A stretch of DNA of 64,000 nucleotides, taken from contig NZ_MUNO01000041.1 of NCBI RefSeq assembly GCF_002001015.1, positions 62,001 through 126,000 of the forward strand, given 5' to 3'. The notes under the pieces were generated by a model. That model did no database searches. It was not told the DNA's origin and worked only from the letters and a program-made list of their open reading frames with translations. The number at the start of each line of letters is the position of its first letter. Positions within the stretch are counted from its first letter, which is position 1. Below, piece after piece: positions 37,620 through 53,518 of the stretch. Source of the DNA: Polaromonas sp. A23. GTDB taxonomy: Bacteria > Pseudomonadota > Gammaproteobacteria > Burkholderiales > Burkholderiaceae_C. The translations under genes were made by a program, and so were the position numbers.

Positions 37620-38069
37620 ATGAACAAATTACTTGCCACCTTGATCGCTACCCTGGTTACCGGCGCTGCATTTGCACAAGTCACTGCACCCGCTACACCT
37701 GCCACACCAGCTGTGCCTGCTACTGCCGCAACAACGAAGGCAGAAGTCAAAGCCGACAAGGCCGTGGCAGCTGCAGTGAAAAGCGAAGCCAAGGTGGATG
37801 CCAAGGCCGACGCCAAGGTTGAAAAAGCAGAAATGGCAGCTGACACTAAGAAAGCCAAAGCTGCCGCTAAAGCCGACAAGGTAGATGCAAAAGCCGCTGT
37901 CAAAACCGGCAAGGCCGATGCAAAAGCAGACAAGGCCACCATCAAGGCCGATGCCAAGCTGGAAACTGTCAAGACTGATGCTGCAGCCACCAAGGCCAAT
38001 GCCAGCATTGAAACCAATGCAGTCAAGGCAGAAGGCAAGGCCGACGCGAAAGCAGCCGGCAGCAAGTAA
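37620..38069 (+). CDS. Ala/Lys-rich exported repeat protein
   Basis: 149 residues from ATG 37620 (AAAGGACT upstream). A Sec signal (MNKLLATLIATLVTGAAFAQ) is followed by a Thr/Ala/Pro linker, then ~110 residues of degenerate KAD/KA-type repeats (VDAKADAKVEKAE, KADKVDAKAAVKTGKADAK). The mature chain is predicted alpha-helical or disordered, with Lys and Asp/Glu alternating. It resembles histone H1-like or TolA-like Lys/Ala-rich chains only in composition. A strong terminator follows. Confidence 0.8.
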   Translation: MNKLLATLIATLVTGAAFAQVTAPATPATPAVPATAATTKAEVKADKAVAAAVKSEAKVDAKADAKVEKAEMAADTKKAKAAAKADKVDAKAAVKTGKADAKADKATIKADAKLETVKTDAAATKANASIETNAVKAEGKADAKAAGSK

Positions 38070-38107
38070 TTGCGAAGTGGTGGCTGTTAACAGCTGCCAA
38101 GTCGAAA

Positions 38108-38141
38108 CAAAAAAAAGACAGGCCTGGCCTGTCTTTTTTTA
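38108..38141 (+). terminator. Intrinsic terminator
   Basis: GACAGG-CCTGG-CCTGTC stem flanked by A and T tracts; symmetric enough to serve both the Ala/Lys-rich gene and the convergent zinc-ribbon gene. Confidence 0.9.
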
Positions 38142-38181
38142 TGGGCGCATGTCGCCTCAGAACTTGAATCGAAAAAGCGGT

Positions 38182-38433
38182 TTACCGCCCCACCACCGAC
38201 CAACCCGCATGCAGGTTGCTTTTGTCGTTCTCGTATTCCCACGCCGTGCCGCAGCGGTCACAGCTGTATTTGGTCACGTTGACCAGATGGCCGCCGCGCT
38301 TCTCCTGCCGGTTGGCGCCCTGCACAAGCTCGGGGTGGCCCGGGGCTTTGCGCCAGTTGCGCTGAATACCGGCGCATGAATCGCACAGCACCATCTTTTT
38401 CAGTTCGTTTTTTCGGTTCAGGTCTTCGGTCAT
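38182..38433 (-). CDS. Small zinc-ribbon protein
   Basis: 83 residues from ATG 38433 (MTEDLNRKNELKKMVLCDSC). Two CxxC pairs, CDSC (about 17-20) and CDRC near residue 59, would bind one zinc. Basic middle part. Possibly a nucleic-acid or protein adaptor; no family recognised. Divergent from the MerR gene (143 bp apart). Confidence 0.65.
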   Translation of the reverse strand: MTEDLNRKNELKKMVLCDSCAGIQRNWRKAPGHPELVQGANRQEKRGGHLVNVTKYSCDRCGTAWEYENDKSNLHAGWSVVGR

Positions 38434-38538
38434 GGTGCTGCTCTGGCGTTGCTGGGTATGCCCCATTGTCGCTCCAGGTACCGGGCAGGCGGTTTTTACC
38501 CGCGGTCACGGCCAGAACACCCCGCGCAAAGCAGGGGC

Positions 38539-38569
38539 TTGACTTCGAGTGCGCTCGAAGTTTTACAGT
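38539..38569 (+). promoter_or_regulatory. MerR-type promoter with 19-bp spacer and dyad
   Basis: TTGACT (-35, 38539-38544), a 19-nt spacer, and TACAGT (-10, 38564-38569). The dyad CTTCGAG-TGCG-CTCGAAG (38543-38560) fills the spacer. A long spacer with a central dyad is the hallmark of promoters that MerR proteins untwist. The ATG at 38576 is about where transcription would begin, so the mRNA may be leaderless. Confidence 0.85.
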
Positions 38570-38575
38570 CAATGC

Positions 38576-38971
38576 ATGACCACCGCACCCACCGTCTCTT
38601 TAAGCATTGCCGAAGCCGCGGAAGCCTCGGGGCTGAGCGCCTACACGCTGCGTTATTACGAACAGATCGGCCTCATTGCGCCGATTGACCGGCGTAGCGG
38701 CGCGCGCCGCTACAGCGACGCCGACATGCGCTGGCTCGAGTTTCTGGTGCGCTTGCGCGCCACGGGCATGTCGATGCGTGACATGCAGCGCTACGCCCAG
38801 CTGCTGCGCAAAGGCAATACCGCCGGCAGCCTGGCCGAGCGGCAAACCTTGCTGGAAGAACATGCCGCGCGACTGGAAGCCGGCATACGCGCCCAGCGCG
38901 AAACCCTGCAGTACATCCGCAAAAAGATCGGCCTGTACGAAGAACTGCGCGTTGTACCCAAACGCGCCTGA
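38576..38971 (+). CDS. MerR family transcriptional regulator (aldehyde/reductase-linked type)
   Basis: 131 residues from ATG 38576. HTH and wing SIAEAAEASGLSAYTLRYYEQIGL (residues ~9-32), then RRYSDADMRWLEFLVRLRATGMSM, as in the MerR subgroup next to aldo/keto reductases (YhdM/AdhR-like). No Cys suggestive of metal sensing is seen in the effector region. It probably activates its own promoter and the aldo/keto reductase gene 42 bp downstream. Confidence 0.92.
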   Translation: MTTAPTVSLSIAEAAEASGLSAYTLRYYEQIGLIAPIDRRSGARRYSDADMRWLEFLVRLRATGMSMRDMQRYAQLLRKGNTAGSLAERQTLLEEHAARLEAGIRAQRETLQYIRKKIGLYEELRVVPKRA

Positions 38972-39013
38972 CCCAGCCATCTACCCACTCCACTTACCCA
39001 TCCAAAGGACACC

Positions 39014-40012
39014 ATGATCAAAACCCGCACCCTCGGCCGCAACGGCCCTTCCGTCTCCGCCATCGGCCTCGGCTGCATGGGCATGAGCGACTTCTACAGC
39101 AACCGTGACGATGCCGAGTCCATCGCCACCCTTCACCATGCGCTGGACCGCGGCCTGAATTTTCTCGACACCTCGGACATCTATGGCCCGCATACCAATG
39201 AGCTGCTCATCGGCAAGGCCATCGCCGGTCGCCGTAAAGACGTGTTCATCGCCACCAAGTTCGGCATCATGCGCGACCCGGTCGACGAAACAGTACGAGG
39301 CGTCAATGGTCGGCCTGAATACGTCAAAGCCAGCTGCGACGCCAGCCTCAAGCGCCTGGGCATCGACCAGATTGACCTCTATTACCAGCACCGCGTCGAC
39401 AAAACCGTGCCCATTGAAGACACCGTGGGCGCCATGGCCGAGCTGGTGAAGGCCGGCAAGGTGCGTTACCTCGGCCTGTCTGAAGCATCGGCTGCCACCG
39501 TTGCCCGCGCCTGCAAGGTGCACCCCATCGCTGCATTGCAAAGCGAATATTCGCTGTGGACGCGCGACCCTGAAGTTACCGGTACCCTGGCCGCCTGCCG
39601 CGAGCACGGTGTGAGTTTTGTCGCCTATTCGCCGCTGGGCCGCGGCTTTCTCACGGGTGCGTTCAGCAAGCCCGAAGATCTGCCCGCCGACGACTACCGC
39701 CGCAAGTTCTCGCCCCGCTTTGCCGAAGAAAATTTCAAGCGCAACCTGGCCCTGGTCGATGCCGTCAAGCAACTGGCCGTGGCCAAAGGCGTCACCGCGT
39801 CGCAAGTCGCGCTCGCGTGGGTGCTGGCACAGGGCAACGACATCATTCCCATTCCTGGTACCAAGCGCCGCACCTATCTTGACCAGAACATCGCCGCGCT
39901 CGACGTTACGCTGAGCCCGGCCGAACTGGCCCAGCTCGACAAGGCCTTCCCGCCCGACGCTGCAGCCGGCCTGCGCTATCCTGCATCCTTTCTCGGCTCA
40001 GTCAACGCTTGA
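39014..40012 (+). CDS. Aldo/keto reductase
   Basis: 332 residues, AKR13-like. The catalytic Asp-Tyr pair is in [14 protein letters not shown], the Lys in IATKFG and the His in YYQHRVD. NADPH-binding segment [15 protein letters not shown] near 276-290. It reduces aldehydes or ketones. AAGGACACC precedes ATG; directly downstream of the MerR gene, so likely co-transcribed and induced with it. Confidence 0.95.
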
Positions 40013-40185
40013 GCCAGTGCAGCCGGGTCGCACACCTCTGCGCAGCTCTCAACCAGGGCGCTGTGTCCGAGCGGCGAGTTTTAAGATTCCTTTTAGACTT
40101 CGGGCATCTAATGCGGTCGCCGCAACGGGCTGCGCTGACAGGCGTCAGCCGGGCGGCATCTTCAATCCTTTTTAAGTTCTTAACC

Positions 40186-40941
40186 ATGAAACTTTCCCGC
40201 GCCCTTGCCTCTTGCTCCATCCTCGTGTCCGCCCTGTGCGCGTCCGCGTCTTTCGCTGCTCCGGCGGCGCATTGGGACTATCGCGGTAAGCACGGCGCCA
40301 CCCACTGGGGCGACATCGAGCCGGCGTACGAATCTTGCGCCAAAGGCCAGGTGCAATCACCCATCGACATTCGCAACGCCCAGGCAGCACAGTTGCCCGC
40401 GCTGGAGTTTTCATACGGCCGCGTGGCGCCGTCCATCGTGAACAATGGCCACACCATCCAGGTCAATGTGCCAAAAGGCCAGTTCCTGACCATTGCCGGG
40501 CAACGCTACGATCTTTTGCAGTTCCATTTCCACACGCCGAGCGAGGAGAAGGTGCAGGGCAAGCCGAGCGCCATGGTGGCGCATTTCGTTCACCGCAGTG
40601 AAGAAGGCAAGCTGGCCGTCGTGGCCGCGCTGATCCAGCCGGGCAAAGCCTCCACCGGATTCGACACGGTCCTGTCGCACCTGCCGCGGCAAGCCGGCGA
40701 GACGTTGACCGTTGACGGCCTTGAGCTCGACTTGGCGGGCCTGTTGCCCACCGAGCGGCGTTATTGGGACTTTGAGGGCTCTCTGACAACGCCGCCTTGC
40801 TCCGAGGGCGTGCACTGGATGGTGCTGACGCAGCCTGTCAAGGTTTCGGCGGGGGCCATTCGCCGTTTTCGCCAGCTTTACCCGGCCAACGCGCGGCCCG
40901 TTCAACCCCTGAATGGCCGCGTGGTGCGCATCTCGCAATAG
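40186..40941 (+). CDS. Alpha-type carbonic anhydrase, periplasmic
   Basis: 251 residues from ATG 40186. Sec signal MKLSRALASCSILVSALCAS... cleaved near AFAA/SFAA. Zinc ligands His114 and His116 (QFHFHTPSEE) and His133 (VAHFVH). Cys51 and Cys205 (TTPPCSEGVHW) form the conserved disulfide. It hydrates CO2 in the periplasm. A weak hairpin at 41006 may end the transcript. Confidence 0.95.
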   Translation: MKLSRALASCSILVSALCASASFAAPAAHWDYRGKHGATHWGDIEPAYESCAKGQVQSPIDIRNAQAAQLPALEFSYGRVAPSIVNNGHTIQVNVPKGQFLTIAGQRYDLLQFHFHTPSEEKVQGKPSAMVAHFVHRSEEGKLAVVAALIQPGKASTGFDTVLSHLPRQAGETLTVDGLELDLAGLLPTERRYWDFEGSLTTPPCSEGVHWMVLTQPVKVSAGAIRRFRQLYPANARPVQPLNGRVVRISQ

Positions 40942-41005
40942 CCCGTTCAGGGCGCTGGGCCGTCACTGGGTTTATTCCCAGGCGGACCCCCGGGTTTGCC
41001 CTTTC

Positions 41006-41022
41006 AAGCCTGTTTGAGGCTT
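41006..41022 (+). terminator. Weak hairpin after carbonic anhydrase
   Basis: AAGCCT-GTTTG-AGGCTT followed by ATT; possible terminator, short T run. Confidence 0.4.
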
Positions 41023-41170
41023 ATTGGCGCATAATTCAACTGTTTGGGTGGATTTCCATCCAGACAGGTTAGTGATCGGTCAGTTTCGCGCGCTACGGCG
41101 GTACTTCTCAGGTTTGTTGTGCTTTCGGGACCCCATCGCTTTTGTTTTATGTGTTTTTTGAGGAGTCCCC

Positions 41171-41539
41171 ATGGGCAATAAACTTTACGTCGGCAATCTG
41201 CCTTACACAGTGCGCGACGAAGATCTGCAACAGTCTTTCGGCCAATACGGTGCTGTCACCAGCGCCAAGGTCATGATGGAACGCGACACCGGTCGCTCCA
41301 AAGGCTTCGGCTTTGTGGAAATGGGCAACGATGCCGAAGCTCAAGCAGCTATCGCCGGCATGAACGGCCAATCTCTTGGTGGTCGCAGCATCACCGTGAA
41401 CGAAGCCCGTCCGATGGAGGCACGTCCTCCACGTAGCGGCGGCTTCGGCGGTGGTGGTGGTGGCGGCGGTTACGGCGGCGGCGACCGTTCCGGCGGTGGC
41501 GGTTATGGCGGCGGCGGCGGTGGCCGCGGCGGCTACTAA
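41171..41539 (+). CDS. RRM RNA-binding protein with Gly-rich tail
   Basis: 122 residues. RRM residues 1-80 with RNP2 LYVGNLPYTV and RNP1 SKGFGFVEM, then a 30-residue Gly/Tyr/Arg-rich tail (GGFGGGGGGG and GGDRSGGGGYGG). Such Rbp-type proteins bind single-stranded RNA and are often cold-induced in cyanobacteria and betaproteobacteria. GAGGAG precedes ATG. The leader from the preceding hairpin is ~150 nt and T-rich, as for cold-shock mRNAs; whether it acts thermally is not known. Confidence 0.92.
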   Translation: MGNKLYVGNLPYTVRDEDLQQSFGQYGAVTSAKVMMERDTGRSKGFGFVEMGNDAEAQAAIAGMNGQSLGGRSITVNEARPMEARPPRSGGFGGGGGGGGYGGGDRSGGGGYGGGGGGRGGY

Positions 41540-41613
41540 GCCCTGCAACCCCAGCCAACGGCAGAAATGCCGTAGCAAACCAGCTACCTCAGCCCTGCGC
41601 TGAGTAAAGCGTC

Positions 41614-41648
41614 AAAGGCTTCGAAACTTCGGTTCCGAAGCCTTTTTC
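41614..41648 (+). terminator. Intrinsic terminator after the RRM gene
   Basis: AAAGGCTTCG (41614-41623) pairs with CGAAGCCTTT (41636-41645), followed by T residues. Confidence 0.85.
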
Positions 41649-41821
41649 TTTGGAGGGGCGGTTCCCCGAAGAATCGCAATGACCGTACGCGCACATCTTC
41701 AAACACGAGACTCGGCGATGAATGTCTGGCGCCGCTGCGCTACGGATAGTTCTACGGATCGGGGACAAACTACGTCCCTGCCACATCATTCCCCTGTTTG
41801 ATTAAAAAGGGACGAAGGCCG

Positions 41822-41880
41822 ATCGTTAGCGATGGCTCTTACTCCTTTGCGAATGTTCACGACGTGGCCATCGCTACGAT
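41822..41880. repeat. Imperfect inverted repeat
   Basis: ATCGTTAGCGATGGC (41822-41836) and GCCATCGCTACGAT (41867-41880) pair with one bulged T; 30-nt loop. Unknown role; upstream of the Fic gene. Confidence 0.5.
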
Positions 41881-41945
41881 GAAAGCAAGGGGCAATTTGG
41901 ACGTTTCGGCGGGTTGGCGAGCAATTTGAGCCGTATTTCAGGCTC

Positions 41946-41970
41946 ATTCACCGTATTAAATGCGGTGAAT
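41946..41970 (+). promoter_or_regulatory. Dyad operator upstream of the Fic gene
   Basis: ATTCACCG-TATTAAATG-CGGTGAAT, perfect 8-bp arms. CATAAT at 41977-41982 may be the -10, placing the transcript start at or next to ATG 41989. Confidence 0.5.
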
Positions 41971-41988
41971 ATGCTTCATAATCCCCGC

Positions 41989-43119
41989 ATGGCCAGACCT
42001 CGTGCTCCTCATAACCCACGCTATATCTGGCAGCTACCCAACTGGCCGCAGCTCCAGTTTGACCTTGCTGCCTTGGCCGCGCAATTGGCGCAGGTGCATC
42101 GGGCGCAAGGCGAACTCATGGGGCGTATGGCCGAGTTGGGTTTGGCGGAGCGCGAGCAAGCCACCCTGCAGGTGTTGACCCAGGAGGTCATCAAAACCAG
42201 CGAGATTGAAGGCGAGCGGCTCAGCCTGGACGCCGTGCGTTCGTCCATCGCCCGCAGGCTGGGCCTGGATATCGGCGCCTTGGCTCCGAGCGACCGGCAT
42301 GTAGACGGCGTGGTGGATGTGGTGCTGGACGCCACACGCAACTTTGACCAGCCGTTGACCAGTGAACGCCTGTTTGGCTGGCATGCAGCCTTGTTCCCCA
42401 CCGGCTACAGCGGCAGGGTGCGCATTACCGTGGCCGCATGGCGCAACGACGCCAGTGGCCCCATGCAGGTGGTGTCCGGCCCAGTGGGCCGCGAGCGCGT
42501 GCATTTTCAGGCGCCACCGGCCAACATCTTGCCAGCACAAACCGAAGCCTTCCTGAGGTGGTTCAACGCAGCCCCGGTGGGGGACGCACTCATCAAGGCC
42601 GGGCTGGCTCATCTGTGGCTGGTCACGTTGCACCCGTTTGACGACGGCAACGGCCGCGTCAGCCGCGCCGCGGGCGACATGGCACTCGCCCGCGCCGAAG
42701 GCACCAGCCGGCGCTTTTACAGCTTTAGCGCCCAGATACAGCGAGAGCGCAAAGACTATTACGACCAGCTGGAGGCCACGCAAAAAGGCCCGCTGGACGT
42801 CACGCCCTGGCTCAGCTGGTTTCTGGGCTGCCTGCTGCGCGCCGTGCAGGGCGCAGACGCCACGCTGGCCGGTGTGCTGGACAAGGCCCAGTTCTGGCAA
42901 CGCTGGGCAGGCACGCCCATGAACGAGCGCCAAACCAAAGTACTGAATCGTGTGTTGGACGGCTTTGAAGGCAAGCTCACCAACGCCAAGTGGGCCGCCA
43001 TTGGCAAATGTTCCGCCGACACAGCGCTGCGCGATATCAACGACCTGCTGGCGCGCGGCGTGCTGCGCAGGCTGAAGGGTGGGGGGCGCAGCACGGGGTA
43101 TGAGTTGTGCGTCAAGTAG
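41989..43119 (+). CDS. Fic family protein (AMP transferase)
   Basis: 376 residues from ATG 41989 (MARPRAPHNPRYIWQ); the upstream in-frame start overlaps the operator. N-terminal DUF4172-like helices, then the inhibitory motif TSEIEG (about 70-75, the S/TxxxE-G/N class), and the Fic core HPFDDGNGRVSR at 215-226. The C-terminal ~90 residues form a winged helix (MNERQTKVLNRVLDGFEG, then RDINDLLARGVLRRL), so the protein may bind its own promoter. Fic proteins transfer AMP from ATP to target proteins. It stands alone, without a separate antitoxin. Confidence 0.93.
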   Translation: MARPRAPHNPRYIWQLPNWPQLQFDLAALAAQLAQVHRAQGELMGRMAELGLAEREQATLQVLTQEVIKTSEIEGERLSLDAVRSSIARRLGLDIGALAPSDRHVDGVVDVVLDATRNFDQPLTSERLFGWHAALFPTGYSGRVRITVAAWRNDASGPMQVVSGPVGRERVHFQAPPANILPAQTEAFLRWFNAAPVGDALIKAGLAHLWLVTLHPFDDGNGRVSRAAGDMALARAEGTSRRFYSFSAQIQRERKDYYDQLEATQKGPLDVTPWLSWFLGCLLRAVQGADATLAGVLDKAQFWQRWAGTPMNERQTKVLNRVLDGFEGKLTNAKWAAIGKCSADTALRDINDLLARGVLRRLKGGGRSTGYELCVK

Positions 43120-43129
43120 ACGCTGCTTG

Positions 43130-43888
43130 TTAGCGTCCAGCGCCAATACCCGACTGCAAACGCAAGCCGCGCAAACGCACGTGCGCAGCGTCTTCCATGT
43201 CCACCGGTAACTGCTGCTTGGCTTGCAAGTAGTGATTGGTAAACACATCCAGGTAAGCCTCCAGCGTTTGCGCAGCAAGCGTTTCACCGGCCAGCTCCAG
43301 GCACAGGGCCGCTACTTCAGACGTGCAAAAGTGTTCGTCGCGCTGCGAGCGGCGCAGCTTATAGCGGGAGAGCTGCTCGCTCTGCAGACTCAGCACAGGC
43401 AAGTGATTCAGGTAAGGGCTCTTGCGAAACATCTTTCGTGCCTCAGGCCAGGTGGCGTCGAGCAACACAAACAACGGGCGCTTGTTTACCGCGCCCGCTG
43501 CAACATCGGCAGGCAACACATCCGTCACCACCCGCTCCGCCGCCACAAACTCCCCGGGAAACACCAGGTACGGCTGCCACTGCGGGTCAGCCAGCAGGGC
43601 AAGCAAGGCAGGGTCTACCTCTGTGCGCGCCCACCCAAACGCAAACGTGTCTGCCACTACATCAGCAATCAGCCAGCCCGTGTTGCTGGGTTTCAGTGGT
43701 TCGATGTCCGCCATGACCAGGCACACGCCCGCACGCGTGGGCACCACGGGGCGCAAGGCGCACATGCAGTGGCTGGGGATCAGCCGGCAACCGGCGCAGC
43801 GCACATTGCGCGGGCCGCCGCGGGCCAGAAAGGGCTTGGAGGCGCGCGCCAGGCGCGCGGTGCGCAGAAGAGAAACGGCGTGGGTCAT
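43130..43888 (-). CDS. DTW-domain protein (tRNA-uridine aminocarboxypropyltransferase-like)
   Basis: 252 residues from ATG 43888 (MTHAVSLLRTARLARASKPF). The Cys-rich N-terminus (CAGCRLIPSHCMC) and the family signature DATWPEARKM (the DTW motif) match the TapT/YfiP family, which makes acp3U in tRNA from AdoMet. Cytoplasmic. It is 22 bp downstream of the fusion protein gene and same-strand; co-transcription is possible but the functions look unrelated. Confidence 0.9.
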   Translation of the reverse strand: MTHAVSLLRTARLARASKPFLARGGPRNVRCAGCRLIPSHCMCALRPVVPTRAGVCLVMADIEPLKPSNTGWLIADVVADTFAFGWARTEVDPALLALLADPQWQPYLVFPGEFVAAERVVTDVLPADVAAGAVNKRPLFVLLDATWPEARKMFRKSPYLNHLPVLSLQSEQLSRYKLRRSQRDEHFCTSEVAALCLELAGETLAAQTLEAYLDVFTNHYLQAKQQLPVDMEDAAHVRLRGLRLQSGIGAGR

Positions 43889-43910
43889 GGGCGAAGTGCC
43901 GTCAGCCGCA

Positions 43911-46640
43911 TCAAACCTTCTCAAGCTGCTGTTTCGCATGGGCTGCGCCCGTCCCGTTCGGTGCCAGCTCCAGGTAATTGCGAAACGCCTTCTTCGCCTT
44001 GTCGCCATCGCCCGCGCGGGCATGGGCGTCGCCCAGGTTCAGGTAGGCAATCGCGCGTGACGGGTCCATCTTCACGGTGTTCTCAAACCAGCGCGCCGCT
44101 TCCTTGAACTTGTCTTGCTTGAAATAAACAAAACCCAGGTTGTTGGCGGCCAGCGCAAAGTCGGGGCGCAGCTTCAGTGCTTCGGTGAACTGGGCCTCGG
44201 CCTCGGCATAAAGCTTTTCCTTGTAGAGCTGCAGGCCGCGGTCATTGGCGCGCTGGGCCAGTTGCCGTGCCGAGCTGGGCACCGCCAGCGGCGTGGTGAT
44301 CTTCTGTTCGCCTCCCTGCAGGTCTTTCACCACCACCGTTGCCGTGGGTGGCGCGGCCACCGGTGCATCGCTGCCGGCTGTGGGCGCGGCAGCAGGCGGG
44401 CGCGTGGCGTCCAGCTTGCTGTTCAGCGCAATCGCGTCGCCAGACAGCTGGCTTGTCTGCACGCTCAAAAACTCGGCCTCTACCGGCAGCGCAAACACAA
44501 AGTCGCCGCCTTCCGAGCCCGGCAGGCTGCCAAAGGCCGGCGTCTGCCGCGAAACGGACGCCACAGCCGGCGCCACATACGCGGCCAGCTCGGTGGCGGT
44601 GATCAAGCCGTCACCGTTCAAATCGGCCTTGCCGCCCATGGCCTGCAGCAGCGTCCAGGTAAAAACCGAGTGCCCGTTCGGCCCGCCGTCGGCCACCAGC
44701 TGGTCGGCGCCGCCGGCCGTCAGCATCTGCCGGCCCAGGCGTTTGGCGTTGTCACGCAGAAAGTTGCCAGAGCCCGCGCCGCGCGTCAGGCCCAGCCCGC
44801 TGTAGCAGGCGTCCATCACAAACAGCACATGCTTGGCCGTCAGGCTTTCAGCAATGTTCTGCAGCTCCGTCATCGGCACCGCGTCGGTGGCAATCTTGTT
44901 CGGGTCTGAATCTGCCGGAATGATGTAGCCCAAATCGCGGCCCGAGCTCAGCTGCCGTGTGGCGCCGTGCCCGGCAAAAAACACAAACAAGCGGTCGTTC
45001 TTCTTCATGCCGCTGTGCGCCAGCTTGTCATGAAAGGCGGCCAATATGCCGGTGCGCGTGGCCTCGCGGTTCTCCAGAGAGATCACGTGGTCGGTGGCAA
45101 AGCCAAAGCGCTGGATCAACGTTTCACGAATGGCACGCGCATCACGCACCGCGTACTGCAGCTTGGGCCAGCTGGCGTAGCCGTCAATGCCAATCACAAT
45201 GGCCCATGAATCGCTGTAGCCCGGGTTGGCCGCCTGCGGGGCGGGCGCCACGCCCGCGCCCTTGGCCACGGTAAAGCCGGTTCCGTCCCAGCTGGCAAAC
45301 TGGTAGCCGTCGGCCACCAGGCGCTCCAGAATGGCCGGCAGCGCCTTCACTGTGCGCTCATGAATGTCATGAAACAGCACAATGCCGCGGCCTTCCTTTT
45401 CAACAGACTTCAGCACCCGCTCCACGATGGAGCTGGGCACGGGGTCGGCCCAGTCCAGCGAGTCAATGTTCCACATGACAGAGCGCAGGTGCGCGGCTGA
45501 CAGCACGTCCAGCCCTTCGTCATTGCGCGCGCCATACGGAAAGCGAAAAAGCGGCGAGCGCCGCGCATCCACCGCTTTCAGCAACTCGTCGGTGCCCAGC
45601 ATTTCAGATTTGAGCCCCGCGCCATTGAGCTTGGAAAGCTGCGCATGCGTCATGCTGTGGTTGGCCAGCGTGTGGCCCGCCTCCATCAGCTTGCGGCTGA
45701 TGTCTGCGCGCGGCCCCAGCTTGGTTTTGCCGTCGGCCGCTACCGTGCCCAGGTTGCTGCCCACCTGAAAGAAGATGCCCGGCACGCTGTACTGCTTCAG
45801 AATGGCCGCAATCTCGTTGGTGTAGGTGCCGTGCGGGCCGTCGTCAAACGTCAGCACGATGGTCTTGGGCGGCAGGCTGTAGCCAAACACCTCGCCGTCT
45901 TCCTCGTTCTTGCCTTTGCGCGTGGGGGGCTTGGGCAGCGCGTAAGGCATCACCACGCCAAAGTCTTTCAAAATCTGCTCACGCGTGTAGCGCTTCTTCA
46001 GGCTGGCTACATAGTCTTCCCAGCGCTCACGCTTCAGCTCAATCGCGCGCGGCTCAAAGCGGCCAAACACCAGGCGAATTTCCTTCTCGTAATTACGCTC
46101 AATCTCCACCAGCGCATCCAGGTCTTCGCCAATGCGCTTGTGCAGCTTGATGGCCGGTAATGACGAATCAGCCGCCACACTGGTTTGCAGGCTACGCAGC
46201 AGCTCCCTAAAAGCCAACCGGTCAGCATCAAAAAGGCTACGGTCGCTTTCCACATAGTCCAGCAGGCCGGCAATCGCATCAAAGCGCTGCGGGTTGCCAG
46301 AAGCCACCAGCGCCGCCAGTTGCGCTTCAATCTCGGCCGCGCGCGCACGGTTGTCATGAAAAAGCCCCTGCCCCACCTGGTTGGCCATGGCCCGCTCGCC
46401 TGCACCCAGCTTTTTCTCATCAGCAAACAGCACAATGATTTTTCGGTAGCTGGCCAGCAGGTCTTGCATGCCCGTCAGGATTTTGCTGGTGTCGGGTGGC
46501 GTGGCGGCCAGAACATTAGGAACCGGTGGTGCGTTTTTCTTGCTGTTGCGTGCGTCAACAGAAATGACGATGGCGGTGGCCACCACCAGCAACAGGGCTC
46601 CTCCGGCAACAGCGAAGGCGATCTTTGTTTTTTTGTTCAT
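43911..46640 (-). CDS. Polysaccharide deacetylase - caspase-like peptidase - EF-hand - TPR fusion protein
   Basis: 909 residues. A single N-terminal membrane helix (about 7-28) and a ~200-residue helical part. Then a NodB-type deacetylase (~258-455) with TFDD 264-267, HSMTH 328-332, RFPYG 366-370 and FHDIH. Then a C14 caspase-like domain (~478-670) with His558 (FAGHGA) and Cys612 (DACYSG). Then an EF-hand (D673 to E684, DLNGDGLITATE). Finally about three TPRs (~793-895). The catalytic residues of both enzymes are present. Topology suggests a periplasmic anchored protein. The deacetylase probably acts on peptidoglycan or a surface glycan and the caspase on proteins, perhaps Ca-regulated. The combination is unusual; frames are intact, so this is not a broken gene. 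Confidence 0.9.
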   Translation of the reverse strand: MNKKTKIAFAVAGGALLLVVATAIVISVDARNSKKNAPPVPNVLAATPPDTSKILTGMQDLLASYRKIIVLFADEKKLGAGERAMANQVGQGLFHDNRARAAEIEAQLAALVASGNPQRFDAIAGLLDYVESDRSLFDADRLAFRELLRSLQTSVAADSSLPAIKLHKRIGEDLDALVEIERNYEKEIRLVFGRFEPRAIELKRERWEDYVASLKKRYTREQILKDFGVVMPYALPKPPTRKGKNEEDGEVFGYSLPPKTIVLTFDDGPHGTYTNEIAAILKQYSVPGIFFQVGSNLGTVAADGKTKLGPRADISRKLMEAGHTLANHSMTHAQLSKLNGAGLKSEMLGTDELLKAVDARRSPLFRFPYGARNDEGLDVLSAAHLRSVMWNIDSLDWADPVPSSIVERVLKSVEKEGRGIVLFHDIHERTVKALPAILERLVADGYQFASWDGTGFTVAKGAGVAPAPQAANPGYSDSWAIVIGIDGYASWPKLQYAVRDARAIRETLIQRFGFATDHVISLENREATRTGILAAFHDKLAHSGMKKNDRLFVFFAGHGATRQLSSGRDLGYIIPADSDPNKIATDAVPMTELQNIAESLTAKHVLFVMDACYSGLGLTRGAGSGNFLRDNAKRLGRQMLTAGGADQLVADGGPNGHSVFTWTLLQAMGGKADLNGDGLITATELAAYVAPAVASVSRQTPAFGSLPGSEGGDFVFALPVEAEFLSVQTSQLSGDAIALNSKLDATRPPAAAPTAGSDAPVAAPPTATVVVKDLQGGEQKITTPLAVPSSARQLAQRANDRGLQLYKEKLYAEAEAQFTEALKLRPDFALAANNLGFVYFKQDKFKEAARWFENTVKMDPSRAIAYLNLGDAHARAGDGDKAKKAFRNYLELAPNGTGAAHAKQQLEKV

Positions 46641-46940
46641 GAGTTGCTTTTTTATTCAGCCCTGGGCCGGGCTTTTGCCGAATCTACCATTCGGCGTGTT
46701 GGAGCTAGCCGTAGCCGTGGGGCTGATCGAAGAGAACTTTGATGCTGGCGACTGAAAAAAGGCAGCGGTTATCCTGGGTAGCTTAAGTATCAAGTTGATG
46801 CTGATGGAGTTGACCTGCGAGGTGCATCAATTGATACACAAGTGAATCGGATGGAGACACGAGAGGCTCAGTACGATGACAATAGGGAAACGCAACTCGG
46901 GAACACACTACTTCTTCTAGATGCCGGAAGCTGTGCTTAC
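46641..46940. other. 300-bp intergenic region between the fusion protein and patatin genes
   Basis: AT-richer than its neighbours. It contains an imperfect inverted repeat (46788-46801 and 46824-46836, TATCAAGTTGATGC / GCATCAATTGATA). It lies upstream of the fusion gene (promoter side) and downstream of the patatin gene. No ORF of interest. Confidence 0.5.
46788..46836. repeat. Imperfect inverted repeat
   Basis: TATCAAGTTGATGC and GCATCAATTGATA pair with one extra G in the left arm; 22-nt loop. May be an operator or a transcript end. Confidence 0.45.
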
Positions 46941-48020
46941 TTAAATGGCCGCCAGCCCCACCAATGCTGAACGGCCGACTTGATAGCCATGCCCTGAGAG
47001 TAGGTCAAACTCATTCTCAGTAACGCGGCGAAGCGTCGTAGGGAAGTCTGCGGGTTGCAAGCCATTAATAAGCTCGCTGGAACTAGCCGGGCTACCTATA
47101 TATACGTATGCGCCGTTGTCTCTATCTTTCTGAAGATAGTGCATAAACGCCCTAACTCTAAGCGCTCTTGCCTGCTCAGACATGATGTCGTTGACTCGCT
47201 TAAGCCTCCACGGATTTAGTGCATTTCGATCAAATCCCACGGTGAGCGGCGCTCCCGCATCTGACACCAATATGAAAATGTTCGAATGCTTAGAAAGGCA
47301 CTTACCCTGATCAAAAAAGGGCTCAAGGCCAAGATTGTCGTAAACCCCTCCATCGTAAATATGCAACCTCTTAAAGCCAAGTTGAACCACTTCGGCAGCT
47401 TCAACAGGTGCTCCCCAACTAGTACGTTTCTTCCACAAAAACTTGTTTGTATTTAGAGACAACGGCCCAAATGCGCCGGGAAATGCTGCAGATACTGCGA
47501 GAGCAGAAGCCAATGGAAAGTTACCCGGCGTAGCGTAGCCAAGGGAATAGTCTCCAATACTTTCTCGTTTGAAACGGAAACGTTTTCCGTTCTCTGCGGT
47601 AGTGCCATTGATAGACCATTCTGGTGTTTCCGGGAGGTCTGCGAGAGCACTCTTTACATCCCACTCTTCACGGAGTGCCGCTGCGAGGAGATTTGCTCGC
47701 GATAGTATGAAGCGCCAGTTCCATGGCAGAAGCAGCTGGCGTGCCGCACCGTACTGCAAGCTGAGCGCACAGAGCTTGTGCCTAAGGGTCGGATAGATGG
47801 ATGTTTGAAATTCCTCAGAATCTGGCCATCGCATTCCAGCCTCTTGCAAAATCAATCCAACTAGCAAACTGCCACCTGAGACAGTGGATATACGACTCAC
47901 ATCTCCCAACAGCCTTTTCTCTGCCAGGTATCGAAGAAGGCCTAGATGAAAAATCATCGCCCGCACCCCCCCGCCCGACAGAACAAGCGCAAGCTGAGAA
48001 GATGAGTTTTCTTTGGTCAA
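46941..48020 (-). CDS. Patatin-like phospholipase
   Basis: 359 residues. Oxyanion loop SGGGVR (15-20), nucleophile Ser48 in TVSGG, catalytic Asp223 in DGGVYDN. Such enzymes cleave acyl chains from phospholipids; in bacteria they serve as virulence factors or abortive-infection effectors (CapV in CBASS). No signal peptide, so cytoplasmic. Third gene of a same-strand run with two ComEC-like MBL proteins (24 bp after the first MBL gene), in a visibly AT-richer segment that suggests transfer. No CD-NTase is nearby. Confidence 0.9.
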   Translation of the reverse strand: MTKENSSSQLALVLSGGGVRAMIFHLGLLRYLAEKRLLGDVSRISTVSGGSLLVGLILQEAGMRWPDSEEFQTSIYPTLRHKLCALSLQYGAARQLLLPWNWRFILSRANLLAAALREEWDVKSALADLPETPEWSINGTTAENGKRFRFKRESIGDYSLGYATPGNFPLASALAVSAAFPGAFGPLSLNTNKFLWKKRTSWGAPVEAAEVVQLGFKRLHIYDGGVYDNLGLEPFFDQGKCLSKHSNIFILVSDAGAPLTVGFDRNALNPWRLKRVNDIMSEQARALRVRAFMHYLQKDRDNGAYVYIGSPASSSELINGLQPADFPTTLRRVTENEFDLLSGHGYQVGRSALVGLAAI

Positions 48021-48044
48021 CTGTTGGATCTCGCGGCGAAACAG

Positions 48045-48947
48045 TCAACGTGTCTGCAGTGTGTATTCAGTTTCAGCGGTGATACTTCCGATGTAGTTCG
48101 AAAATTTGGATTGACCGTATTGCTCTAGCTCCGGCCACTTGAAGCTTTCATTGGAAACGTAGAAGTGAACTTTCTTGCCGTCCGAATCCATTGTGATATC
48201 TCCCGCGCTGTTTTGCGTAATGGTCTGGTATCCGGTGTAGTAATGCAGATGCCTTGAAGGCGCCTCTCCAATTACTATTACTTGAGGGTCTAGCTTCTCA
48301 AGCCATGAATTGGGAATTTTTCCGGAGGTTCTCCCATGATGCGAGGCAAACACAATAGTTGTTTTTTTCAGCTCAATACTGCCAACTATTTTTTCCATGA
48401 AATCTGTTTCTAAATCACCAAGCCATAGAAAACTTGTATTACCTATTTGGTATCTAATCACTGCGGAAGTATTGTTAAAGCTTTCCCCCGCATCGCAGGA
48501 CGCCAAGGCTTTTTTAAAGTGCTCGTTCGAGAGGTCAGGCCAAAGAATTGAAATGCCGGACATGCCACGTTCATCGTCACCAATATTCATCCATTTTCGC
48601 TTTGAACCTTTTTCGATGTAAAACGCCCTATCGCTGTCACGAAGTTTGCAATATCGATTAAATGAGTCTGAGTCAGAATCTTTAATCGCTTGATTCTTGA
48701 CAACGTAAAAATTGACAATGGGGATTGCATCATCTAACAGCTCTATGCCTCCAAAATGATCATCGTCAGGATGAGTACAGATAAACCGTGAGATCTTTTT
48801 ATTCGCCTTTGCGGTTTTGAGTTCTTGAATTATTCGATCTGCGTTTTCGTTGCTCAAGTCGCAATCAATAATAGAAAAATTATCATTGTCATGTTTCAGA
48901 TAGAACATATCGCCCAGTCCCACAGAAAAACTTTTTATCACTGACAT
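48045..48947 (-). CDS. ComEC-like metallo-beta-lactamase-fold protein
   Basis: 300 residues from ATG 48947 with GGAGG upstream (an in-frame ATG 18 bp earlier is less likely). Metal motif THPDDDHFGG (H59-x-D61-x-D63-H64, the HxDxDH form), GDLE near residue 190 and SHHGRTSG, as in the cytoplasmic nuclease-like domain of ComEC/Rec2 and related soluble proteins. Predicted nuclease or phosphodiesterase. 24 bp upstream of the patatin gene; paralogue of the next gene only at motif level. AT-rich codon use. Confidence 0.85.
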   Translation of the reverse strand: MSVIKSFSVGLGDMFYLKHDNDNFSIIDCDLSNENADRIIQELKTAKANKKISRFICTHPDDDHFGGIELLDDAIPIVNFYVVKNQAIKDSDSDSFNRYCKLRDSDRAFYIEKGSKRKWMNIGDDERGMSGISILWPDLSNEHFKKALASCDAGESFNNTSAVIRYQIGNTSFLWLGDLETDFMEKIVGSIELKKTTIVFASHHGRTSGKIPNSWLEKLDPQVIVIGEAPSRHLHYYTGYQTITQNSAGDITMDSDGKKVHFYVSNESFKWPELEQYGQSKFSNYIGSITAETEYTLQTR

Positions 48948-49050
48948 GGTGCCTCCATTTGGCATTTTTTCTAAAATTTCATGCGACTAACTCTTGATGA
49001 GCGAGAGTTTTCTAATGAGATTTCATCTCACGTTCAAGTGCTTCGATATC

Positions 49051-49920
49051 TCACCCAAGGTACTCTGTATCAATAGTGAAATCCCCATTGGCGGACACAG
49101 TAATTTCTATGTGCCCGTCTCTTCGTGTAGTAAGCACGTGTCGGCGCTTCATCGTGGTTCTAACCAATACCCCGTCAGGGAAATTTTCGACAACGCGGGC
49201 TCTATAGGTCCCAGCCATTTTTTGAGTCTCATGCTGTATGGCTTTATCGGACATGATGATTGCTCGCGGTTGGCAGTATTTAAACAATTCTTCGCTGTAT
49301 CCATTCTCCCGTCCGTGATGTGAGGCAACGAGAACGTCCACACCTTGCAATGCCGCCCGAAAATCGTCGCGGGTCAGTAGAGCCAACCATCCTGCAGCTT
49401 CAAGATCTCCCGGGAAAAGGATCTTGAAACCCTGATACTCAAAAAATATGACAAGGCTAAGGTTGTTTGTGTCCTGGAACGCAGGGTAAGAGTTAAAGAA
49501 GGAGGTAAAAGTGATCCTTCCCATATGAGTGTCAAAAGGCTCCGGAATAGGGCTGTTGTAGGTCTCATGAATACTGAGAAATCGCTCAATGTCCGGGCCC
49601 AGCGAACCACTCTGTAGCTTGATAGCTCGAAGAATGGCGGGCGTTGGATGCGGGTTACGCGTCAGAGAAGCCACATGAATGCCCATTTCCCATAGGCTGT
49701 TTAGATCGCTCATGTGATCTAAATCTGCATTGGTAATGAAGAGGTAGTCGAGCTGAGTACGCCTGAGAACGTATCGAATATGTGTGCTTGGTCGCCAATC
49801 TTGAGCGTGCCCAGAATCAATCATGGCCAACCGACCCAGAACGCCGTTCTCGCGGTGAGATAACAGTGCGCACGCGCCATGTTCGACGTCGCAAATTCGA
49901 AGAATCATTTCCCCAGCCAT
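49051..49920 (-). CDS. Second ComEC-like metallo-beta-lactamase-fold protein
   Basis: 289 residues. The first motif reads TNADLDHMSD, with Asn replacing the first His of HxDxDH; PGDLEAAG and SHHGREN are intact, so metal binding may be partial or altered. The remainder is diverged from the neighbouring MBL protein. A second start (ATG 49908, MILRICDVEHGACALL) is possible. It heads the three-gene minus-strand run; 103 bp separate it from the other MBL gene. Predicted partner or regulator of that gene; no evidence beyond linkage. Confidence 0.82.
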   Translation of the reverse strand: MAGEMILRICDVEHGACALLSHRENGVLGRLAMIDSGHAQDWRPSTHIRYVLRRTQLDYLFITNADLDHMSDLNSLWEMGIHVASLTRNPHPTPAILRAIKLQSGSLGPDIERFLSIHETYNSPIPEPFDTHMGRITFTSFFNSYPAFQDTNNLSLVIFFEYQGFKILFPGDLEAAGWLALLTRDDFRAALQGVDVLVASHHGRENGYSEELFKYCQPRAIIMSDKAIQHETQKMAGTYRARVVENFPDGVLVRTTMKRRHVLTTRRDGHIEITVSANGDFTIDTEYLG

Positions 49921-49999
49921 CCCGCGCCCCTGATTACTAAATTAGTTTGTCGAATCACGCCCGCAAGCATTCTGAACTCAAACGGACAAAAAGTTACGT

Positions 50000-50023
50000 C
50001 TAAATACCCTCTCCTCTATTTAG
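50000..50023. repeat. Inverted repeat CTAAATA / TATTTAG
   Basis: Perfect 7-bp arms (50000-50006, 50017-50023) followed by a G run; in the 277-bp AT-rich gap at the right edge of the MBL/patatin segment. May mark a promoter, terminator or a junction. Confidence 0.4.
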
Positions 50024-50197
50024 GGGGGATTGATCAGGCGACCAGCTGGAACGACGTATTCGGCTAGCTGAGTTTTGCAGTTAAATATTTACAGAACACC
50101 CAACGCGGTCCGAGACTTCTCCGCTTTCCCCTTCATCCCTTGTCCTACGCCGCTGCTTTCGCGTCAGGCTTACCTTGGTCCATTTAGGAGACCCAAG

Positions 50198-50614
50198 ATG
50201 AGCAAGCAGCAGCAAGATTTCAAAACCTTCATGAAAGAGCGGCAGCAAGTCGCGGCAGCGTATGTCAGTGGCGATTCGGGGCCGTTGGGCCGTGTCGTGG
50301 CGCAGGAATCACCGGCCACCTTCATGAGCCCGGGCGGCGGGGTGGTGAAGGGCACGAAGGAAGTGTGGTCGCGTTACCAGCAAGATGCCGGCAGGTTTGA
50401 GCCGGGCAGCACGACCGAGCTGGAGGTTCTTGACATGGCGGCGGGCGACACCGTCGCGTACTGGACAGGCATTCAAAAGGCGCAGGCCCGCATGAAGGGT
50501 GAGCCAGAGCCCGTGGCGAACAAGCTGCGTGTGACCGAAGTGTTTCGCCGTGAAGGCGACTCGTGGAAGCTGGTGCACCGGCATGCGGATCCACTGACTG
50601 AGCCGAAACACTAA
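50198..50614 (+). CDS. NTF2-like (SnoaL/DUF4440-type) protein
   Basis: 138 residues from ATG 50198 (TAGGAG upstream). NTF2-like fold: FMKERQQVAAAYVSGDSGPLGRV, then PGGGVVKGTKEVWSRYQQD and EVFRREGDSWKLVHRHAD at the C-terminus. Cytoplasmic, ligand unknown. Part of it (around codons 63-96) is duplicated about 0.95 kb downstream at 51330. Confidence 0.85.
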   Translation: MSKQQQDFKTFMKERQQVAAAYVSGDSGPLGRVVAQESPATFMSPGGGVVKGTKEVWSRYQQDAGRFEPGSTTELEVLDMAAGDTVAYWTGIQKAQARMKGEPEPVANKLRVTEVFRREGDSWKLVHRHADPLTEPKH

Positions 50615-50676
50615 GGCCTCCCACGGCTTTCACTGCGTGTAGCTCCTTTCCCTCCTCGGGGGGCGTTGCGCCTGCG

Positions 50677-50804
50677 GTCTGGCCCTACTTGTTCATCTGG
50701 GCGATTCCGGGCTCCATGGTCTTGCTGCCCTTCTTGGCCTGGTTTCTGGATCGGCGGTGCAGAAAGAGCGCGCGGTCGAGCGCAGCCGGCTCGACAAGGA
50801 ATAA
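50677..50804 (+). pseudogene. Frameshifted small membrane protein gene (probable)
   Basis: One frame reads VWPYLFIWAIPGSMVLLPFL (a single membrane helix) from 50677. The adjacent frame, from about 50745, reads SAVQKERAVERSRLDKE and then a stop at 50802-50804, as expected for the charged end of such a protein. Together they look like one small single-helix protein broken by a -1 shift. The upstream DNA resembles non-coding sequence, so the start is unclear. A sequencing error is the alternative. Confidence 0.4.
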
Positions 50805-50911
50805 GCGGCGCCCTGCGCGTTGTTGCCGTTGTACTGGTTTGGCGGCTCGTCTCACAGCCGGTGCAGGCGTGCGCTGACACACCGGCATCGCCGCGTGGCT
50901 ACGGTGAGCTC

Positions 50912-51265
50912 ATGAACTGGTTTCACAAGCTTCCTGGCGCGCAGCGCTCCCCGTATGGCCTGGAGTGCCGGATATTGCGCCAGATCCCGCGTCTGCTGGT
51001 GGCGGCCATTGCGCTTCCTGCAATGGTGTCACTGCTGGCGCGGCTGTGGGCTGGAGAGCCTGGCGAGGCGCAGGACCGGCAGCTGCAGGTGTTCGACTTC
51101 CTGATGCTGGGCTTGGCCGGCACCGCGCTGTGGCTGATCGCCGCCCTCTGCTTGGTCTGCGTGATCATCTGGGTCATGAAGGGCCCGGCCTACGTGGCCG
51201 ATGCCTACTACCTGCCGGGCACACGGCGTGCCGGCGCTCCCGGCGCAGGCGCTGAGTCGCCCTGA
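50912..51265 (+). CDS. Small membrane protein
   Basis: 117 residues from ATG 50912 (MNWFHKLPGAQRSPYGLECRI). Two hydrophobic helices (LPAMVSLLARLW and LMLGLAGTALWLIAALCLVCVIIWV, about 36-50 and 65-90) and a Tyr-rich end VADAYYLPGTRR. No family recognised. It lies just after the probable frameshifted gene and may be its former partner. Confidence 0.6.
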   Translation: MNWFHKLPGAQRSPYGLECRILRQIPRLLVAAIALPAMVSLLARLWAGEPGEAQDRQLQVFDFLMLGLAGTALWLIAALCLVCVIIWVMKGPAYVADAYYLPGTRRAGAPGAGAESP

Positions 51266-51597
51266 AGCCCCGGGGGGGCGCTTGCAGCCGTGCCCTTCCG
51301 GTTTGCACCCTGACCGAAGCGATGCTGTCGCCGGCAGGTTTGAGCCGGGCAGCACGACCGAGCCGGAGGTTCTTGACATGGCGGCGGGCGACGCCGTCGC
51401 CTATTGGACCGGGATTCGAAAGGCGCAGCCCGCCGTGCCAGCTTCCTCTGCCGATTGTTCTGACCGTACGAAGAGGCGCTGACATTCCCGGTGACTTTTT
51501 TACTTGGGCCGCCCCCGTGTTCATGGGAGGCGGCGTTGATCAACTCGGCCTACATTTTCTAATGTGTGCTTTGTGGATTGGTAAAAAGGGACTTGCA
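51266..51597. other. 332-bp intergenic region with a duplicated gene fragment
   Basis: Mostly non-coding; contains the NTF2-like fragment at 51330-51432. The upstream extension of the SGNH ORF runs through it and is not likely to be translated. Confidence 0.5.
51330..51432 (+). pseudogene. Partial duplication of the NTF2-like gene at 50198
   Basis: GCCGGCAGGTTTGAGCCGGG and the following sequence to about 51432 matches 50387-50491 at nearly every base (a few substitutions, e.g. GAGCTGG/GAGCCGG). It encodes FEPGSTTEPEVLDMAAGDAV and soon stops. A recent local copy without start or end. Confidence 0.85.
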
Positions 51598-53490
51598 ATG
51601 AAACATCTGTCTTGTGTGGCTGCGCAAATTGGCGAGGGCGCAGCCAAGGTGCTGCAGAAAACTCTCAAGTCCCTGTTTCTTTTCGTCGCAGCGATTGGAA
51701 TCACCGGAACGGTGGCAGCGCAGCCAGCGCCTGTTGGACAGGAGGTGCGTCCGCGAATCGTCTGGGAAGTGAAAAACAGATTCCCTTTGTTCAGATCCGA
51801 GAGTGCATTGCCGGAAATTCTGAAATTGTCAGCTGGTAAACCTATGCTTGAATGGGCAACCCAAACCCTTGCGTCCAGGCCGGATCTGCTGGAGCCTCTC
51901 ACTTCTGACTATGTTTATTCACACAAAGGGGGGTGCAAAGGCAAGTCGGGTAAGCAGGAGTTCAAGACGCTCTGGAATCCGTGCACAGAAACATACGACC
52001 CAGAGCTGTTCAAGCTGCCAACGAGCCACGACATCTACGTACAGATAAAGCCCGCGCCGCCGGGAAAATGCGTGTTCAAACTCGGTAGCCTTCCGGGTGT
52101 TTCGGCAGATTGCGGTGTCCGTGTGGTCATTAGAGTGCCGCGCACGACAGAACCACAGGCACTGGTGGTCGAAGGTATTCCGGGTGTGCCTTCGCTTACG
52201 GAAAACATTCAGGTCCGTGACATTCTTCTTTTTGCTTTTGGTGACTCGTTTGCTTCCGGCGAATCCAATCCGGATGTGCCAGCCATTCACACAAATCACC
52301 CCACAAATGCCCCAACCGGAGAGGCCTTGTCAGGCGTTACCTGGCTGAATTCTCCTCATGAGCTGAAAAGAAAACCCAATTGGCAAGACAGAAGATGCCA
52401 CCGGTCGGTGCTCTCGTGGCCGATTCTTGCCGCGGCCAAGCTTGCTGCAGATGACCCGCACATGGTGGTCAGGGTTGCGTCGTGGGCGTGCACGGGGGCA
52501 GAAATTTCGGACGGTTTTTATTCCGCGCAACTTAAGAGCGGTGCAGACTCGTTGGGGGTGCCCGTTCAGCGTTCCCAGTTTGTGGCAGCACGAGAAGCCC
52601 TTTGCGAAAAGAAACCCGGTGGCAGCGGGAACAGCATCGACACGGTCGAGCATATAAAGGGGACGAAGAGCGGGATGAAAGGCGCAGCTGTGGGATGCCT
52701 CAAGGCAGACCGGACGCGTGAGATTGACGGCGTGCTTTTCACGTTTGGCGGAAATGACGTGTTCTTTGGCCCCGTGATCTTCGACGCCGTTGGCATCGTG
52801 GGAACACATATTCCTTTTGTAGATTGGGCGATCAAGCCGAAGCGTAAAAAAATGGTTAGAACACCATTGCAGGCCAGAGCCCGCATCGACGGAATAGCCG
52901 AAGTTCCTTTTTACGACAAGCTGCAGACCCGTTACACAGCACTTAACGCAGGGTTTGCTGCGCTGGGCGTGCCGCCAGAGAAGGTCTATCAAATCCAGTA
53001 CCCCAACCCGATGCAGGACCAGAACGGAACCTTATGTGCCAAATCGAAGTTTGATGGCATGGATACCCTGGAGAAGGTCCAGAGAAAAGCCAACCTGACG
53101 AAATGGGAGTCCGAGAACGCCCAGACAAACATGATCGTGCCGCTGCAAGATGCCATCCAACCAAGCCGCAACAAATGGAATGTGGTTGACGGGCATGTTG
53201 AAGCCATGAAAAAGCACGGCCTGTGCGCGTACGACAAGAACAAGGAGCTTGAGCTGGCGATGCCCAAACTGTCCTCAGGCAACTGGGTACGGAACTTCAA
53301 GCCTTCTGAATACAACCACTACGCGCCCACCGCGCGATGGTTTCGCACACCCGATGATGTTGTGATGGGCGTGTATTCAGGATCGTCATTCCTGCCTGTC
53401 TCCGGGGCATTTCATCCCTCGGCACAGGCACACTCCGCCATAGCCGACAAGGTGGTGGAGCATCTCAAGAAGCGCTTTACGAGTCCTTGA
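51598..53490 (+). CDS. Large exported SGNH/GDSL hydrolase
   Basis: 630 residues from ATG 51598. Long n-region then a signal-like helix (SLFLFVAAIGITGTVAAQ, about 23-40). Block I is GDSFASGES near residues 216-224, block III GGNDVFFG near 386-393, and the C-terminal HPSAQAHS holds the catalytic His. Multiple Cys suggest disulfides in an exported enzyme. Longer than typical GDSL esterases (~250-400) because of an N-terminal ~175-residue domain of unknown type. It probably cleaves an ester on a lipid or glycan. Confidence 0.85.
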   Translation: MKHLSCVAAQIGEGAAKVLQKTLKSLFLFVAAIGITGTVAAQPAPVGQEVRPRIVWEVKNRFPLFRSESALPEILKLSAGKPMLEWATQTLASRPDLLEPLTSDYVYSHKGGCKGKSGKQEFKTLWNPCTETYDPELFKLPTSHDIYVQIKPAPPGKCVFKLGSLPGVSADCGVRVVIRVPRTTEPQALVVEGIPGVPSLTENIQVRDILLFAFGDSFASGESNPDVPAIHTNHPTNAPTGEALSGVTWLNSPHELKRKPNWQDRRCHRSVLSWPILAAAKLAADDPHMVVRVASWACTGAEISDGFYSAQLKSGADSLGVPVQRSQFVAAREALCEKKPGGSGNSIDTVEHIKGTKSGMKGAAVGCLKADRTREIDGVLFTFGGNDVFFGPVIFDAVGIVGTHIPFVDWAIKPKRKKMVRTPLQARARIDGIAEVPFYDKLQTRYTALNAGFAALGVPPEKVYQIQYPNPMQDQNGTLCAKSKFDGMDTLEKVQRKANLTKWESENAQTNMIVPLQDAIQPSRNKWNVVDGHVEAMKKHGLCAYDKNKELELAMPKLSSGNWVRNFKPSEYNHYAPTARWFRTPDDVVMGVYSGSSFLPVSGAFHPSAQAHSAIADKVVEHLKKRFTSP

Positions 53491-53518
53491 TTGGCTGCGC
53501 TGATGAAGGTGCGAAACA

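Follow-up and report, generated by a model that had tools for sequence, protein, structure and literature searches.

It has been appreciated since the work of Asplund-Samuelsson et al. in 2012, who named the 'Xanthomonas-type metacaspase' (PMC3501461), that a polysaccharide deacetylase and a metacaspase can be joined in one protein. The 17 polysaccharide deacetylase-metacaspase sequences described there, from Xanthomonas, Xylella, Stenotrophomonas and two Acidobacteria, consist of a deacetylase, a metacaspase and one to three TPRs, with some members devoid of TPRs; they are about 100 kDa in size and have intact His-Cys dyads, and in Xanthomonas, Xylella and Stenotrophomonas the TrmE gene adjoins. 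Among prokaryotic caspase groups, this family is one for which a death phenotype has been claimed, in earlier work cited in PMC3501461. The main text of PMC3501461 makes no mention of 'EF-hand', 'EF hand' or 'calcium', and neither the N-terminal domain described below nor a lipobox was found in the sections of that paper at hand. Beyond this report, no paper among the matches listed from the open-licence literature is tied to the fusion, and PMC4933709 holds nothing on a deacetylase, an EF-hand, TPRs or location.

The calcium requirements of the related proteases form a second point of reference. Metacaspases mostly depend on calcium for their activity, with calcium sites in p20 and in the 280-loop of p10, and orthocaspases, which are without p10, are described as active without calcium, a calcium independence that has been proposed for them as a group (PMC5756287). 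Seven archaeal orthocaspases with an EF-hand motif have been reported (PMC6426788); as in the protein described here, an EF-hand and an orthocaspase domain occur together, but those proteins are archaeal, and the passage concerned mentions no NodB and gives no position of the EF-hand relative to C14.

The window, by which we mean the whole 64,000-nucleotide stretch of Polaromonas sp. A23 DNA that was analysed, encodes such a fusion in a single open reading frame of 909 codons plus stop at 43911..46640 on the minus strand, an extent supported by the ORF call and by full-length orthologues (ATG at 46640, stop codon at 43911-43913; the first-pass annotation of this DNA had not given the strand). 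The protein runs from an N-terminal anchor through an N-terminal domain, a CE4/NodB deacetylase and a caspase (C14) domain to C-terminal TPRs. The order deacetylase, C14 and TPR in one chain is that of the Xanthomonas-type metacaspase, which the window member also resembles in its size of about 100 kDa and its His-Cys dyad (PMC3501461); it differs in having a Rhodoferax MAG as its nearest named relative, among the matches listed, and in having no TrmE neighbour. The first-pass claim that NodB, caspase and TPR modules share one 909-residue protein is borne out by the reading frame and by Pfam, which places Polysacc_deac_1 at residues 256-386 (E 8.7e-26), Peptidase_C14 at 479-703 (E 1.2e-18) and TPR_1/TPR_2, three stretches each, at about 800-905, the TPR region as a whole covering residues about 795-905 (43926..44258, minus strand). 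No NCBIfam model matches at its cut-off among the best 25 of 33 models. The Polaromonas sp. A23 genome contains one full-length locus, and ten further matches are partial and weak, mostly to the TPR part.

Conservation was assessed in two alignments, A1 (16 rows) and A2 (26 rows), which share the window member and otherwise hold 15 of 16 and 25 of 36 available loci, picked for intact frames and variety; with two duplicates dropped, they comprise 39 distinct full-length fused proteins. Across the 26 rows of A2, the mean pairwise identity is 68% for C14, 58% for NodB, 57% for the TPRs and 43% for the N-terminal domain, so that C14 is the most conserved module.

The first-pass annotation had considered the fusion unusual, a view not supported in the light of the 17 deacetylase-metacaspase proteins already described in 2012 (in the parts of PMC3501461 at hand) and the wide spread of the architecture. 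The search for NodB-C14 fusions that it had suggested was fruitful: in 200 genomes of the same family, 24 match at E up to 1e-20 and 17 are full length (own genome included), the 16 other full-length copies being 53-76% identical, and Pfam matches to NodB, C14 and TPR occur in 26/26 members of A2. Since full-length orthologues carry the same junction around residues 455-480, an assembly artefact is ruled out. A scan of named genomes returned at least 591 stretches, at least 580 of which encode a relative; among the best 80 that were retained, the match covers the caspase domain in 36 (L030-L065), starting at residue 360 in L056 and at residue 259 in L059. Fused relatives among the matches listed come from Rhodoferax, Massilia, Janthinobacterium, Duganella, Undibacterium, Xanthomonas, Stenotrophomonas, Pseudoxanthomonas, Rhizobacter and others, as well as from Saccharospirillaceae bacterium, Myxococcaceae and Acidobacteriota MAGs. 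In the Xanthomonas locus L055, the frame ends before the end of the match, near the TPRs, and another from Xanthomonas, L059, has only a weak match to the N-terminal domain (19.9 bits). The copy in a 'Deltaproteobacteria' MAG (L046:7231-9936) is 69% identical to that of the window and groups with Oxalobacteraceae, which reflects either transfer or a binning error.

The distribution of the gene is patchy. It is present in 0/24 congeners and in 0/1 same-family congener, several of these genomes being incomplete, and among 321 genomes of the class a C14 domain at 72-74% identity is seen in just two besides the own genome, and the N-terminal domain accompanies it in both. Horizontal gain is possible, but the GC of the gene is native, and the DTW loci of congeners vary upstream. 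Further, six relatives (L021, L022, L028, L066, L067 and L068) are deacetylase-only, with no caspase within the stretch examined, and their existence indicates that the deacetylase and caspase activities are separable; they may have lost the caspase or may be older than the fusion. Five of them (L021, L022, L028, L067 and L068) form one clade (99) in the NodB tree, with L066 placed among the fused rows; the N-terminal profile finds L021, L066, L067 and, weakly, L068, and does not find L022 or L028. The fused rows are not one clade in the NodB tree (3 changes), where outgroup rows lie between deep fused rows at weak forks and on long branches, and are one branch of 17 rows (SH-aLRT 98) in the C14 tree, which was built by a quick method with the EF columns kept in.

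The CE4/NodB polysaccharide deacetylase domain spans residues 256-455 (45276..45875, minus strand), as delimited by Pfam and by alignment to the pneumococcal peptidoglycan deacetylase PgdA (2c1g; E 1.1e-27, 193 of its 211 residues aligned). Five catalytic motifs make up the CE4/NodB deacetylase motif set. All five align with 2c1g and are present by pattern in 39/39 distinct fused proteins, and the catalytic columns of both the CE4 and the caspase domains are invariant in 26/26 rows of A2, the same residues being invariant in A1. The active sites named in the first-pass annotation, TFDD (264-267), HSMTH (328-332), His558 and Cys612, are accordingly all found in place. Unlike PgdA, with which it has the five motifs in common, the fusion protein joins CE4 to a caspase and TPRs, and its substrate is only predicted. 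Among solved CE4 structures the best match is a peptidoglycan GlcNAc deacetylase, and chitin/xylan-type and MurNAc enzymes match too; as read from sequence, resemblance to CE4 enzymes leaves the substrate undecided.

The caspase-like C14 domain occupies residues 475-720 (44481..45218, minus strand), with its catalytic residues His558 and Cys612 encoded at 44967-44969 and 44805-44807 on the same strand. In 39/39 distinct fused proteins the pattern search finds both the His and the Cys motif, and the dyad is invariant in A1 and A2; a His-Cys dyad is also a feature of Xanthomonas-type metacaspases and of the p20 part of orthocaspases. When the C14 profile is compared with solved structures, metacaspases are nearest (4f6o, E 1.1e-8 over profile positions 8-148; 6w8s, E 5.8e-8); the His-Cys dyad and the p20 part are common to both sides, but the match to the type I/II metacaspases stops just after Cys612. 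Arg620, just behind Cys612, is kept by pattern in 39/39 fused proteins. We know of no NodB domain, TPR or export signal in type I/II metacaspases (4f6o, 6w8s).

An EF-hand loop has 12 residues, with D/N ligands at positions 1, 3 and 5 and Glu at position 12. The segment DLNGDGLITATE at residues 673-684 (44589..44624, minus strand) fits this canonical pattern and is kept in 39/39 distinct fused proteins, with positions 1, 9 and 12 invariant, positions 3 and 5 only N or D, and positions 4, 7 and 10 most variable. The EF-hand had been placed right after the caspase domain in the first-pass annotation; the loop is real, but its position is inside the C14 match, 61 residues past Cys612. Pfam EF-hand_5 scores 14.8 bits on the fusion protein, below the cut-off of 25.9, and matches 5/26 members of A2 at E up to 0.01. 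With the ligand pattern intact throughout the 39 proteins, the calcium site that had been put forward as a possibility is plausible. An EF-hand as a general feature of C14 domains was considered and rejected: a loop was found by pattern in 0/30 C14 loci (the best match per genome from 30 genomes, all with the DACR motif and hence a one-sided sample) and in 7/34 unfused C14 domains chosen for similarity to that of the window. The top-scoring unfused C14 domain compared, L170, is without an EF loop, and the C14 fold therefore does not need one. L170:4001-4846 lies on a Pseudoalteromonas piscicida plasmid, and its open stretch starts near the C14 domain.

The chain starts with a hydrophobic segment in 40/41 aligned rows, with a best 15-residue mean hydropathy of 1.6 to 3.0, and the remaining row (L012) has a visible lipobox; start codons were chosen by hand, and export was judged by the hydropathy window and a lipobox pattern. 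That pattern was scored in 20/41 rows; with L012 counted and the two duplicates dropped, it occurs in 19/39 distinct fused proteins. In the window member the only such feature is a signal anchor, a hydrophobic stretch at residues about 8-28 without a lipobox (46557..46619, minus strand), in agreement with the anchor assigned at first pass. By parsimony on the tree, the anchor type has changed at least 4 times (starred branches force 2), with the export-like start retained. The protein is probably envelope-anchored, and an outward or periplasmic orientation is suggested by orthologues with a lipobox; L057 and L065 might instead be secreted after cleavage and not stay anchored. Between the anchor and the deacetylase lies a conserved N-terminal domain, missed by the first-pass annotation, at residues about 50-232 (45945..46493, minus strand). 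It is unnamed, delimited by family conservation and helical by eye; no Pfam family finds its best-matching stretch in this region, and the profile of the domain has no PDB relative. A CarD fold was considered for it on the strength of a single-sequence search (E 0.0086-0.0092), and these matches were treated as chance because the profile search did not reproduce them (best E 0.11).

Overall, the sequence establishes the architecture, two intact active sites, an export- or anchor-like N-terminus and an EF loop that lies within the caspase domain, and the window protein is a real, well-kept member of a family that is known but has received little study. What is usefully added here is not the fusion, which was already on record, but its likely export and the position of an EF-hand within C14. 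As to function, the protein is most likely a calcium-binding envelope deacetylase and protease. The fuller reading that we favour, tentatively and at a probability of about 0.4, is that of an exported, membrane-tethered two-enzyme Xanthomonas-type metacaspase, in which an envelope glycan deacetylase and a calcium-supported caspase would serve envelope maintenance. It draws on the constant presence of NodB, C14 and TPRs, on the conservation of the motifs and of the EF loop with its ligand positions, on export-like starts and lipoboxes, on a peptidoglycan GlcNAc deacetylase as the best solved CE4 match, and on C14 as the most conserved module. It is weakened by L170 with no EF loop, by the deacetylase-only relatives, by the matches of CE4 to enzymes of other specificity, by the lack of an NCBIfam match at cut-off among the best 25 of 33 models, and by the description of orthocaspases as active without calcium in PMC5756287.

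In the two-enzyme reading, the protein would face the periplasm, where the CE4 domain would remove acetyl groups from a glycan of the wall or envelope, with peptidoglycan N-acetylglucosamine as the most likely substrate. An envelope protein would be docked by the TPRs, perhaps together with the N-terminal domain; calcium on the EF-hand would hold the caspase domain in its active shape, and the caspase domain would then cut the docked protein after Arg/Lys, possibly following self-cleavage in the loop at Arg620. Calcium would act as a signal of a permissive or structural kind, and the protein would be concerned with envelope maintenance and not with cytosolic killing. The first-pass idea that glycan sensing or wall damage could drive proteolysis is a hypothesis; in these data, coupling of the two enzymes goes no further than the joint conservation of both active sites.

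Of the other explanations, the one that survives best, though on balance we consider it unlikely, is that calcium at the EF-hand has a purely structural role and that the protease is constitutively active, with no calcium control. A single, near-invariant loop would suit such a site in a protein probably exposed to calcium from outside, as would the EF loops in the other C14 domains compared; set against this, the nearest solved relatives, the metacaspases, mostly need calcium (PMC5756287), so that regulation may still apply. The conserved EF loop also suggests that activity is not independent of calcium, at variance with the proposal for orthocaspases in PMC5756287, and calcium control, if true, would make the fusion family an exception to that proposal.

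Less probable still is the role proposed for the Xanthomonas orthologue, that of an executioner of programmed cell death (PCD), in which the caspase would kill the cell under metabolic stress. Caspase-deficient Xanthomonas mutants are reported to lack PCD (Gautam and Sharma, 2002; Raju et al., 2007; both cited in PMC3501461), the deacetylase-caspase gene is linked to PCD in PMC3501461, and the PADLOC 'caspase' profile matches the fusion protein (E 1.9e-20). However, the export-like N-termini argue against a simple cytosolic executioner, as they would be expected to keep the protease from cytosolic targets. Moreover, the Xanthomonas enzyme of the early work had a size of 55 kDa as against about 100 kDa for the type, for which PMC3501461 suggests processing; the PARP homology cited for the deacetylase part would fit badly with an intact CE4 domain; and in a 2014 paper on Xanthomonas PCD (PMC4006831) the terms caspase-like, metacaspase, deacetylase and caspase gene are all absent. 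The likely export and the near-invariant EF-hand make the death claim testable through the location of the protein, its need for calcium and each active site.

More doubtful again is a calcium-gated caspase outside the cytoplasm, whose EF-hand would be an activation switch and whose deacetylase and TPRs would aim it at damaged wall, such that a breach leads to proteolysis. The EF-hand would then perhaps take over from the loop that is sensitive to calcium in eukaryotic metacaspases; an EF loop in place of the metacaspase 280-loop is a lead.

Upstream of the fusion gene lies a low-GC block (46941-49920; 0.39-0.52 in 500-base windows) that encodes a patatin-like phospholipase, with no PADLOC match, and two metallo-beta-lactamase-fold proteins (the second below the Pfam cut-off), both of which match the PADLOC candidate defence family PDC-M48B (E 1.7e-139 and 6.2e-58). 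A defence role, in which the caspase would be an effector triggered by envelope attack from a phage, predator or competitor, is very improbable, for although the PADLOC caspase profile matches and the two candidate-defence proteins lie in the block directly upstream, the GC (0.62) and GC3 (0.77) of the fusion gene are like those of other neighbours and usual for the window, the eleven window neighbours are missing beside 64 relative loci save for two SDR matches of about 30% identity (the flanks of L005-L029 being short), the Xanthomonadaceae gene is reported to sit beside trmE, rnpA and yidC (PMC3501461), and a conserved block of neighbours was observed at the Xanthomonadaceae loci here.

In the window, the fusion gene is flanked by a DTW-domain gene and the patatin gene, with no TrmE neighbour; we do not treat such a neighbour as defining outside Xanthomonadaceae. 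Among the 16 neighbour clusters listed, most are limited to Xanthomonadaceae or to four Burkholderiales loci, and two span families (5 and 3 genera) at differing distances, the larger one on both strands. A fixed operon partner was not found, no neighbour gene keeping one place across families among these clusters, and this fits a protein without such a partner. A 722-residue ORF at 51322-53490 has no Pfam match at E 0.001 and no PADLOC match at E 0.01. Rfam gave no match within 36000-54000 and the promoter scan found 0 sites against 0.9 expected; terminator-like sites numbered 9 against 6.1 expected. The DTW-domain gene (43130-43888; Pfam E 8.1e-55) lies downstream on the same strand, with its likely ATG 22 bp past the fusion stop, and the two genes possibly form one transcript.
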